DNA of 51,136 nt from Candidatus Roseilinea mizusawaensis (GTDB taxonomy: Bacteria > Chloroflexota > Anaerolineae > J036 > Brachytrichaceae): positions 1-51,136 of the forward strand of contig JAEANN010000033.1 in NCBI GenBank assembly GCA_016841965.1, given 5' to 3'. Shown here piece by piece: positions 18,723 through 21,514 of this stretch; the first letter of the stretch is position 1, and each line of letters begins with the position of its first letter. A model generated the notes under the pieces. That model saw only the letters and a list, made by a program, of their open reading frames with translations, was not told where the DNA came from and did not search any database. Made by a program: the position numbers and the translations under genes.

Positions 18723-19868
18723 CTATGCCCCCGTGTGACGCCGCCACAGGTGAAATGTCGTGTAGTGACGCGCCGGCGCAATAGGGCGCACGGGGGTGTG
18801 TGCCGCCAGCCGGCCGGCGCGCTGAAGCAGATGCCGCACAGCCGACGATACCTGGCCGGCCAACTGGAATGATTGCCGTGCGGCGCGCTCGTTCAACAAC
18901 CCCAGCCCACACGTGGCTGTGAACAACGACCGCTCGGCCAGGTCTGCCACATTTTCAAAGCGCATGGCCGATTCCAGCCAGCGCGAGAGCAGCGTCAGGG
19001 CGTGGTGCTGGCTCAGATCAGGCGCAGTCGGGATCAGGCCAAAAGCCACCATCCCGCCTTGCCTGATGAACTGTTGCATATCCGCGTCGGCCATGAAATC
19101 TTCCAGACCTTGATGCGCATCAAACGAGATCAGGTCGGGTCGCGCACGCCAGACCAGCCCTGTGGGCAGGCGGGCGCAGCAGTGCAGGCCGGCCACTGCG
19201 CCGGCAGCGCGAATCATGGTCAACGATTCCTTCAACACCGGCAAGACATGATGCGCCAACGGCCCCGGATGTGTCGCTGCCAGAGACAAGCAGGGTTCAT
19301 CGAGCATGAGGATAACCGGCTTGCCCCAACGTTGCAGCCGCTCGATCTGCCACAACGCCAGACGGGTGACGCGCCAGGCCAGCGCGCGAAAGATATCCAG
19401 GGCGAGCGCGAGGTCGGGGCCGCGCGCGTCAAGCAAAGGCCGGCCCGCCATGTACATTTGCGTCGCCAGCGTAATAGGGCCGACGATCTGGCCTTTCAGG
19501 GCGCGCGCATCGCGGAACGCCCCGCCTGCCAGCGCGCGCTCGAAGGCAAAGAAGCCGGCGGCGCAGTCGGCGTCCAGTTCGGCCGGCGCATCGTCACAGC
19601 GATGCGCCAAGCGATGGATCAAATCCGCGCGCAACTCATAGCCGGGCAGCCGGCCGCGCGCTTGCAGCGCATCCTCAAACGCCGTCAGCGCCTGGAAGAT
19701 CACAGTCTCGGCCGGGGCGCGTTGTGGTAATTGCGGCCAGAATGGGATGTGCGGGCTGTGCTCGGCGACAAATGCAACAGCTTGTTCGGGGTCACTCATG
19801 GGCAGGCTGCCGATGCCGGTAAAGTTGCCCTGAGGCAGAAAGCGACTCGCTTGGCCTATCTCAGACAT
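18723..19868 (-). CDS. MetE/UROD-superfamily methyltransferase, candidate core methionine synthase
   Basis: This 381-residue protein matches only the C-terminal catalytic half of cobalamin-independent methionine synthase. It has GSLP at 20-23, a DEP motif in LMLDEPCLS at about 189-197, the zinc pair His229-x-Cys231 in LHCC, FGLIPT near 276, and a third zinc ligand Cys320 in ATCGLG. The zinc-thiolate set fits methyl transfer to homocysteine. The folate-binding N-terminal half of MetE is missing, as in the folate-independent core families called MesA-MesD. A cobalamin riboswitch, terminator and consensus promoter lie upstream, so it is probably repressed when B12 is plentiful. Ribosome binding site AGGAG is about 8 bases before the ATG at 19868. 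The methyl donor is unknown; uroporphyrinogen-decarboxylase-like roles are less likely given the zinc ligands. Confidence 0.8.
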   Translation of the reverse strand: MSEIGQASRFLPQGNFTGIGSLPMSDPEQAVAFVAEHSPHIPFWPQLPQRAPAETVIFQALTAFEDALQARGRLPGYELRADLIHRLAHRCDDAPAELDADCAAGFFAFERALAGGAFRDARALKGQIVGPITLATQMYMAGRPLLDARGPDLALALDIFRALAWRVTRLALWQIERLQRWGKPVILMLDEPCLSLAATHPGPLAHHVLPVLKESLTMIRAAGAVAGLHCCARLPTGLVWRARPDLISFDAHQGLEDFMADADMQQFIRQGGMVAFGLIPTAPDLSQHHALTLLSRWLESAMRFENVADLAERSLFTATCGLGLLNERAARQSFQLAGQVSSAVRHLLQRAGRLAAHTPVRPIAPARHYTTFHLWRRHTGA

Positions 19869-19919
19869 ATCATCGCTCCTATCAATCAGTTCTCATCTGA
19901 AAGCGCAGCATGCGCAAAC

Positions 19920-19953
19920 AAAAAATGCCCGACCTTCGGGTGAAGATCGGGCA
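19920..19953 (-). terminator. Intrinsic terminator controlled by the cobalamin riboswitch
   Basis: On the minus strand a 12-bp stem (TGCCCGATCTTC pairing with GAAGGTCGGGCA, one T-G pair) closes an ACCC loop and is followed by six T. It lies about 50 bases upstream of the methyltransferase ATG and downstream of the riboswitch. This is the expected position for a transcriptional off-switch. Confidence 0.9.
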
Positions 19954-20103
19954 GGAACGGGCTTTGCTTTGGCGCGGGATGGGCAACCTGCGCAGCGCCG
20001 GCTGGGCTGTGTGTCAGTCGGCGCGCGCTGCTTGCCGGAATCAAAGTTACGGCGCGCAGATCATATCTCACCTCCCTGCTCACGAGAAGGTTTGAACTGT
20101 GTC

Positions 20104-20237
20104 GTCAAGGCTGGCGTCCTGGCTCTTGCGCATTGCGCAATCACAGTTGCGGCACAGCGCCGGACTTTCACCGGCTTCCACCTTTAAGCCCTTGCATCCG
20201 GGCAGCCCTCGAACGAGGGCATGCGGGACGCCTTGAC
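20104..20237 (-). promoter_or_regulatory. Cobalamin riboswitch
   Basis: Read on the minus strand, the segment contains the conserved core: GGAAGCCGGTGAAAGTCCGG, then CGCTGTGCCGCAACTGT, then GCCAGGA further on. These match the cobalamin aptamer (B12 box and its flanks). The ends pair as GTCAAGG (20237-20231) with CCTTGAC (20110-20104), forming P1. A peripheral hairpin, CCCTCGTTCGAGGG, lies in the 5' part. The RNA leads into the terminator at 19953-19920 and the methyltransferase gene, so ligand binding should stop transcription. Confidence 0.93.
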
Positions 20238-20259
20238 CAGTATTCGATTGTCAAGCAGG

Positions 20260-20287
20260 ATTATAGAGTTGGCGCGCGCGGTGTCAA
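20260..20287 (-). promoter_or_regulatory. Consensus sigma-70 type promoter for the riboswitch transcript
   Basis: On the minus strand a perfect TTGACA (20287-20282) is followed, after 16 bases, by a perfect TATAAT (20265-20260). Transcription would start near 20253, about 15 bases before the P1 helix of the riboswitch. It is one of two promoters in the window with a recognisable -35 and a perfect -10. Confidence 0.88.
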
Positions 20288-20378: not shown

Positions 20379-20405
20379 TGTTATTGAGAAAAATTCTCAA
20401 TAACA
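20379..20405. promoter_or_regulatory. 27-bp perfect palindrome, candidate Fur/Zur-family operator
   Basis: The arms TGTTATTGAGAA and TTCTCAATAACA flank a central AAA with no mismatch over 12 bp each. Its AT-rich make-up stands out from the surrounding DNA. The core TTGAGAA-3-TTCTCAA resembles Fur-family boxes. It lies 27 bases before the ATG of the first COG0523 gene, and such genes are often Zur targets. A possible extended -10 (TGATAAAAT) lies just upstream at 20348-20356, so a bound repressor would block the early transcribed region. Confidence 0.75.
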
Positions 20406-20431: not shown

Positions 20432-21514
20432 ATGGGCAAAAAGGTGTCAGTCACCGTCATCTCTGGATTCTTGGGGGCGGGCAAGACCACGCTGCTCAAT
20501 CACATCCTGCGCGCCGACCATGGCTTGCGCATGGCTGTGCTGGTGAACGACTTTGGCGCAATCAACATTGACGCGCAACTGGTGGCCGAGGCGCAAGGGG
20601 AAGAAGAAATCATCAACTTGGCGAATGGCTGCATCTGTTGTTCCATCCGCGGAGATTTGCTGGCCGCTGTGGCGCGCTTAATCACTCGTCAGCCAGCGCC
20701 ACAGCACATCATGGTTGAAACCAGTGGCGTTTCAGATCCGCTCGCCGTGGCGCGCACATTCCTCTTGCCTCAGTTCAACGCTTTCTTCGAACTGGATGCG
20801 ATTCTGGTGGTTGTCGACGCCGAACAGGTTTTCTCGCTGCGCGAGGATCAAATGGCGCTGGCCACCGAACAGCTCAGCGTGGCCGATCTGGTTATTGTGA
20901 ACAAAATCGACCTGGTTACAGAGACACAGCGTCACAAGATTCACGAGTGGGTGCGCGATGTTGCGCCGGCCGCTCGGATTTTGGACGTTTCTTTTGGCCG
21001 GGCGCCCCTGGAATTCATTCTGGGGGTTGGGAACTACTCGTCAGACAAGCTGGCCAGATTGAGCCAAAGCCGCAAGCGGCACGAGGTGCACACTCACGAA
21101 GCCGGCGCGCCGCATGATCACGTCCACGAAGCCGGCGCGTCGCACGATCACACCCTGGTGTTCAGCTCTTATCACTACACCAGCGATGAGCCAATGCTCT
21201 ATGAGCTGCTCTGCGCCGCATTCGATGATCTGCCAGAGACCATCTATCGCGCCAAGGGCATTTTGTGGCTGGCAGAAGCGCCGGAAAGACGGGCGCTCGT
21301 CCATCTGGTGGGCAGCCGTGTTTCCATGCTGATGGAAAAGCCGTGGGGAAAAAGCCGGCCGACTTCGCAGATGGTCTTTATTGGCGCGCAGGGTGGTGTG
21401 GATGCAGACACTTTGTGCGCGCTGTTCGATGGCTGTCGCGTCAGCCGCGCACTCGCGCAACATCCTGACCCGGTGCAACAAATTCACACTTGGATTCGTG
21501 GAGACAGATTGTGA
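20432..21514 (+). CDS. COG0523 GTP-dependent metallochaperone (CobW/ZNG1-like)
   Basis: This 360-residue G3E-family GTPase has Walker [10 protein letters not shown] at 12-20, the metal motif GCICC at 66-70, an ETSG/DPL switch region and the guanine motif NKID. A C-terminal CobW domain follows. Between the domains lies a His-rich stretch built from a duplicated ten-residue unit ([10 protein letters not shown] then [10 protein letters not shown]), likely to bind zinc or another metal. These proteins deliver metal to client proteins at the cost of GTP. The ATG at 20432 is chosen because the longer frame from 20369 runs through the operator palindrome. Ribosome binding site is GGAGG at 20416-20420. 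The second COG0523 gene follows after 34 bases. Confidence 0.9.
21095..21154. repeat. 30-base in-frame duplication encoding the His-rich linker
   Basis: Two copies of a 30-base unit (21095-21124 and 21125-21154), differing at a few positions, encode HEAGA-P/S-HDH-V/T. The duplication doubles the number of potential metal-binding His in the linker of the first COG0523 protein. Confidence 0.85.

Follow-up and report, generated by a model that had tools for sequence, protein, structure and literature searches.

A zinc-intact MesB-like protein behind a cobalamin riboswitch with a five-codon leader ORF in Chloroflexota: a candidate B12-repressed backup methionine synthase

The accepted methyl source of core methionine synthases is a corrinoid protein or, for MesD, an oxygen-dependent partner. 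MesB is described by sequence similarity together with co-occurrence with CoFeSP, the corrinoid protein of the Wood-Ljungdahl pathway, and has zinc-less relatives in Chloroflexales (PMC7857596). For Chloroflexales that paper covers zinc-less MesB-like proteins alone, and the text searched makes no mention of a riboswitch. An E. coli metE mutant is not rescued by the MesB of Dehalococcoides mccartyi, whose one methyl donor is methylcobalamin (PMC7005905). Among the known targets of B12 riboswitches are B12 synthesis, B12 transport and B12-independent isozymes (PMC3766115).

The window analysed here is a stretch of 51,136 nucleotides from Candidatus Roseilinea mizusawaensis (contig JAEANN010000033.1). 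The locus of interest occupies positions 18723-20287 of its minus strand (Table 1). A preliminary description of this DNA had listed, in order, a promoter, an aptamer, a hairpin with six T, a ribosome binding site and a 381-residue ORF, and direct reading gives the same order. The covariance search that it proposed with the cobalamin family returned RF00174 on the minus strand, where the lack of such a match had been named as grounds for rejection. The aptamer itself thus stands, with its ends shifted by ∼13 nt, from 20104-20237 to the 20225-20090 given by the model. The description had also spoken of a B12 off-switch. A riboswitch with an OFF-type layout is present, but it is not a plain aptamer followed by a terminator: a conserved leader ORF lies inside, and neither this ORF nor the anti-Shine-Dalgarno hairpin ahead of it had been described. 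The genus-mate, a Thermoflexales MAG (SKYG113, locus L031; protein 66% identical), has the identical order of aptamer, terminator and gene, so the arrangement in the window is not a product of chance.

Table 1. Features of the locus on the minus strand of the window
Feature	Position	Strand	Details
Predicted sigma-70-type promoter	20260..20287	(-)	Read directly, consensus match; TTGACA 20287-20282, 16-nt spacer, TATAAT 20265-20260
Cobalamin riboswitch aptamer	20090..20225	(-)	RF00174, 46.7 bits (cut-off 31.5), E=1.2e-8; entire model matched
Regulatory hairpin CCTTCTCG-TGAG-CAGGGAGG	20071..20090	(-)	3' strand is the Shine-Dalgarno GGAGG of the leader ORF; local fold -5.5 kcal/mol
Leader ORF ATG ATC TGC GCG CCG TAA (MICAP-stop)	20047..20064	(-)	Five codons; start six nt past the hairpin
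Intrinsic terminator	19920..19953	(-)	12-bp hairpin 19953-19926 (one G-U pair), six T 19925-19920
Ribosome binding site AGGAG of MesB-like gene	19876..19880	(-)	
MesB-like core methionine-synthase-type protein	18723..19868	(-)	381 aa, ATG at 19868; zinc H229, C231, D250, C320; homocysteine S21, D190

An inverted repeat, TATTGAGAATTTTTCTCAATA, is found at 20380-20402 and looks like a Fur/Zur-type operator; two divergent CobW/COG0523 genes probably start ∼30 nt further on, at 20432. The second of these genes encodes a ZigA-type zinc chaperone, above the NCBIfam cut-off. A link between the MesB-like gene and the divergent CobW/ZigA-type genes was rejected, as L031 has no such neighbour.

The predicted leader ORF, conserved across the host family, is the firmest new element of the locus. 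The hairpin and the start codon occur together in 28 of 32 cobalamin leaders examined from the family, a set to which L191 was added. Exactly five codons are present in 25 of these 28 ORFs, compared with 3.2% when the downstream sequence is shuffled; the leaders are related, and the count is not one of independent trials. The consensus is M-I-(N/R)-A-P-stop, with proline written in all four of its codons and the stop in all three. Variability peaks at third codon positions, at twice the level of second positions, and synonymous changes occur throughout, a pattern that matches selection at the level of the peptide. A terminator-like hairpin follows in every leader (28/28), 30-107 nt after the ORF stop. 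The window terminator contains GAAGG, which is complementary to the anti-Shine-Dalgarno strand CCTTC; this motif is found in 15 of 26 leader terminators and, among 19 other terminator-like hairpins, only in that of the window. The proposed CCTTC-GAAGG contact would span 5-6 bp in the window and shows no covariation. A classical antiterminator, in which the leader pairs with the 5' arm of the terminator (GGTGAGAT with ATCTTCACC in the window), was discarded, the pairing not being conserved in L031. At L191, a hairpin of the same kind covers the start of the MesB-like gene itself, and the same Shine-Dalgarno serves a real gene; the switch there would simply hide the ribosome binding site of the gene. 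Six loci of Chloroflexia-type genomes (L048, L049, L110, L112, L090, L091) have a similar hairpin, often together with a short ORF whose first codons read M-x-x-A-P (L049, MARAP-stop; L048, MDHAP..), and the leader layout may be wider than one family.

The switch would work as follows. When B12 is plentiful, the aptamer would close the hairpin that hides the Shine-Dalgarno of the MICAP-stop ORF, leaving the leader untranslated; the terminator would form, and the cell would use B12-dependent MetH. When B12 is scarce, the hairpin would open and a ribosome would translate the leader, probably pausing at the Pro-stop and so holding the hairpin open. In the inferred antitermination step, the freed CCUUC strand would pair with the terminator GAAGG and RNA polymerase would read through. 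The enzyme would then bind homocysteine on zinc and methylate it, presumably to methionine, the donor probably being something other than a corrinoid.

Searches of Pfam and NCBIfam with the 381-aa protein matched no model, a PDB sequence search gave no convincing relative, and a 31-row profile returned weak unrelated matches alone. Because direct domain assignment failed, a fold model was needed. The AlphaFold2 model (pLDDT 91.3, pTM 0.90) is nearest to MesD (3RPD, Z 24.2) and then to MetE C-domains (Z 23-24), with uroporphyrinogen decarboxylases and a Methanosarcina methyltransferase scoring lower (Z ∼20). An identity as a uroporphyrinogen decarboxylase (URO-D), of which weak Pfam matches are seen in 4 of 31 relatives, is rejected on this ranking and on the zinc site. 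Homologues with shared motifs occur in Chloroflexota, Omnitrophota, Deltaproteobacteria and others. The MesB homologue of genome G048, which we take to be Dehalococcoides mccartyi 195, is 28% identical to the window protein (116 bits, BLASTP). In sequence comparison, the window protein has S-D-H-C-D-C at the six functional positions, identical to MesB; the equivalents in E. coli MetE are Ser433, Asp599, His641, Cys643, Glu665 and Cys726 (Price et al., PMC7857596). The homocysteine-binding Ser21 and Asp190 are retained. The zinc ligands His229, Cys231 and Cys320 named in the preliminary description are all in place, and the comparison adds the fourth, Asp250, which is Asp in MesB also and Glu in MetE. 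Its assignment of a MetE C-terminal-type barrel without a folate domain likewise holds, with a complete zinc site and the fold ranking given above: the 381 aa form one barrel, and the N-terminal folate-binding domain of MetE (PF08267) is absent. The grouping with zinc-less uroporphyrinogen decarboxylases that it had named as a counter-outcome did not occur. The predicted protein is clearly MesB-like, yet not MesB, and of a zinc-intact core methionine-synthase type.

In a maximum-likelihood tree (a quick search without bootstrap or archaeal MesA/MesC sequences), the window protein, L031 and nine other Chloroflexota proteins form one clade on a long stem (SH-aLRT 99), the others being 43-66% identical to the window protein. 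The clade is separate from the zinc-less Chloroflexia paralogues (support 100) and from MetE-type outgroups (support 100). The preliminary description had proposed a tree with MesA-MesD and MetE; the present one, of MesB-type and MetE-type sequences, puts the protein in a clade of its own within the MesB radiation, and in none of MesA-MesD as defined. Three positions that are near-constant in MesB are altered in the clade: the Thr of N-T-D-W after HCC, Trp276 (to Phe) and Pro318 (to Ala). These lie near the zinc site and hint at a changed donor side. The published membership threshold for MesB is at least ∼130 bits / 29% identity to the D. mccartyi protein (Price et al., PMC7857596). The window protein reaches 116 bits and 28%, as measured by BLASTP to the G048 homologue, whereas Price et al. 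used phmmer in the opposite direction. The HC-D-C zinc ligands and the Ser/Asp homocysteine site of MesB are present, and CoFeSP (AcsC/AcsD) is missing from the host genome. No description of this clade was found, and its member in the window would depart from MesB in two features, similarity and a CoFeSP host.

A further zinc-intact MesB-like group (L020, L022, L025) takes a weak sister position to the B12 clade (support 90). Its gene adjoins an NrdJ-like (B12-dependent ribonucleotide reductase) gene, and the single host tested, G319, has no CoFeSP. The zinc-less MesB-like paralogues lie near SAM riboswitches in seven loci of Chloroflexia-type genomes (L055, L059-L064). In the two loci that were read, the gene stands between an IF-2B-family, mtnA-like (methylthioribose-1-phosphate isomerase) gene and a PfkB-family kinase gene, which suggests a role in methionine salvage for these paralogues.

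The window genome (G000) is 99% complete. Its MetH scores above the TIGR02082 cut-off and has homocysteine, pterin, B12 and activation domains (truncated C-terminally in the scanned piece), and a MetF-type domain is fused to a homocysteine methyltransferase. The genome has no two-domain MetE; MetE split into two proteins was also rejected, no stand-alone folate N-domain scoring above cut-off. CoFeSP as methyl donor was rejected for G000 on a PF03599 search, which finds only the MetH pterin domain there and gives strong matches in G048, G361 and G392. CbiC, the sole marker used for corrin synthesis, was undetected in G000 and in G400. B12 is therefore probably scavenged or imported in G000, and G400 likewise probably imports it. 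MetH without two-domain MetE, CoFeSP or CbiC is what one would usually find where a B12 scavenger has a second, B12-independent enzyme. Contig C28 of G000 encodes a further MetE-like protein of one domain, with an HC/E/C zinc site; contig C57 has an MtgC-like corrinoid protein and, next to it, a homocysteine methyltransferase, and G400 has a similar MtgC-like protein. The one other cobalamin riboswitch of G000 (L117:964-4086, contig C48; leader MIRAP-stop) precedes genes for an SCO2321-family protein, an SCO2322-family protein and an ECF substrate component, and likely marks a B12 uptake locus. Across nine clade genomes tested, MetH-sized frames bearing a B12-binding domain are found in eight (not seen in G323), CoFeSP in none and two-domain MetE in G334 only. 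A search for MesX (PF08908) gave no match in 14 genomes, G000 included, and none in the control genomes either.

A cobalamin riboswitch lies upstream, on the same strand, of 8 of the 11 intact clade genes (window, L031, L191, G334, G198, G353, G166, G323); for G335, G341 and G686, the contigs end before the place where it would be expected. The gene is directly behind the riboswitch in the window, L031 and L191. The other arrangements are operons: riboswitch-metE-mesB-like in G334, where the metE stop overlaps the mesB-like start; riboswitch-methyltransferase-ECF-CobN/BchH-like-mesB-like in G166 (annotated) and G323 (same order); riboswitch-NifHD-NifK-mesB-like in G353; and riboswitch-(shortened NifH, NifK)-CbiX/ferredoxin-mesB-like in G198. 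These nitrogenase-like operons (L116:3556-7405 and L115:8488-9560) have a NifH-NifD fusion and a NifK/BchB-like gene just before the MesB-like gene, with the shortened NifH and NifK and the CbiX-like/ferredoxin protein in G198. The NifH part scores best to CfbC, and the operons are possibly a B12-repressed tetrapyrrole or reductase module. The arrangements in G353 and G198 also suggest that a nitrogenase-like or F430-like module may serve as donor. In G642 (L193:6992-8152), a truncated MesB-like frame precedes a MetE fragment; this B12-riboswitch region also contains a solute-binding ABC transporter and a CobB-like amidotransferase.

The best reading, to which we give roughly an even chance, is that the protein is a B12-repressed backup methionine synthase of a MesB-related clade, B12-independent and using a donor that is probably not a corrinoid. 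It is favoured because of the metE operon and the pattern of MetH without MetE. The earlier suggestion of an enzyme used when B12 is scarce thus became the best-supported one, for the OFF direction that we infer, and the suggestion of a tie to corrinoid supply survives only as a rival. Several points count against a backup synthase: the known chemistry of the MesB family needs B12, because the D. mccartyi enzyme uses only methylcobalamin; a second B12-independent synthase looks redundant in G334, where the gene coexists with MetE; the Chloroflexia relatives that keep company with CobN, ECF and nitrogenase-like genes fit a cofactor role; and G000 already has the single-domain MetE-like protein on C28 with its HC/E/C site. 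The CobN and ECF operons keep alive an unlikely alternative, corrinoid salvage, in which the methyl group of imported methylcobalamin would pass to homocysteine and leave cob(I)alamin ready for adenosylation, co-regulated with B12 uptake. In vitro, free methylcobalamin is a substrate of MesB (PMC7005905), relatives occur together with ECF transport and CobN-like genes in riboswitch-led operons, and G000 and G400, without CbiC, probably import B12. However, methionine synthesis is indicated by the metE operon of G334 and by the remnant of MetE next to the broken copy in G642, MetH could already demethylate methylcobalamin, and the residues near the zinc site that MesB conserves are changed.

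It is improbable that the enzyme is a synthase fed by a methyl-corrinoid protein other than CoFeSP, such as the MtgC-like protein of G000, and raised when B12 falls. The MesB-type active site would suit such a donor, and candidates are encoded in G000 and G400, but there would be little point in inducing a corrinoid-dependent enzyme at B12 shortage, the MtgC-like protein is adjoined by a homocysteine methyltransferase of its own, and in Roseiflexus-type genomes the only B12-binding-domain matches outside MetH are frames of ∼330-340 aa, not of the small MtgC size. Scarcely more credible is that the enzyme, rather than being a methionine synthase, methylates another thiol or a tetrapyrrole cofactor produced under B12 shortage. 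The position of the gene behind NifH/NifD/NifK-like and CbiX-like genes in G353 and G198 speaks for it, as does the related zinc-less group of the same phylum, now found behind SAM riboswitches in an operon with mtnA-like and PfkB-kinase genes; against it, the homocysteine-binding Ser/Asp and all four zinc ligands are the same as in MesB, and the window and L031 genes stand apart from such clusters. The leader could also be an ordinary aptamer-terminator device in which the ORF is untranslated and its codons are conserved as RNA structure. Part of the ORF does pair with downstream sequence in several predicted leader folds, but several traits make this quite doubtful: all four proline codons and all three stops are in use, third positions vary twice as much as second ones, the Shine-Dalgarno is spaced from the start, the length is fixed at five codons and L191 uses that Shine-Dalgarno for a real gene.

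A MesB relative seemingly made only at B12 shortage, in genomes without CoFeSP, breaks the corrinoid-donor pattern. The nearest characterised relatives take their methyl group from B12, and the clade gives a concrete system in which to seek a new methyl donor. The leader ORF adds a family-wide, readily tested example of a riboswitch that seemingly acts through a micro-ORF and a terminator. The wider proposal is possible, though we would lean against it as a whole: a fifth family of folate-domain-less methionine synthases, corrinoid-free and switched by a new cobalamin-riboswitch platform that gates an Ala-Pro-stop pentapeptide and a terminator.

MesB, or core-MetE, of D. mccartyi (PMC7005905, PMC7857596) is alike in its single catalytic barrel without a folate domain, its Ser/Asp pair and its HC-D-C zinc site; the window protein differs in its 28% identity, its separate clade, its changed equivalents of N-T-D-W, Trp276 and Pro318, a host with MetH and without CoFeSP, and a gene behind a B12 riboswitch. 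The zinc-less MesB-like proteins of Chloroflexales (PMC7857596) belong to the same phylum and the same MesB radiation, but have no zinc ligands and fall in another clade. MetE under B12 riboswitches shares the regulatory logic of a B12-repressed partner of MetH, whereas the window protein has no N-terminal folate domain and is distant in sequence. MesD (3RPD, Z 24.2) is the closest solved fold and a core enzyme that does not need B12; it requires MesX and oxygen, and the MesX search gave no match in G000, nor in the control genomes. The closest precedent found for the leader is two uORF-bearing B12 riboswitches of M. tuberculosis, at metE and ppe2 (PMC11260477), where a translated short ORF also affects the downstream gene; the leaders described here differ in a fixed five-codon ORF ending in Ala-Pro-stop and followed by an intrinsic terminator throughout the family.
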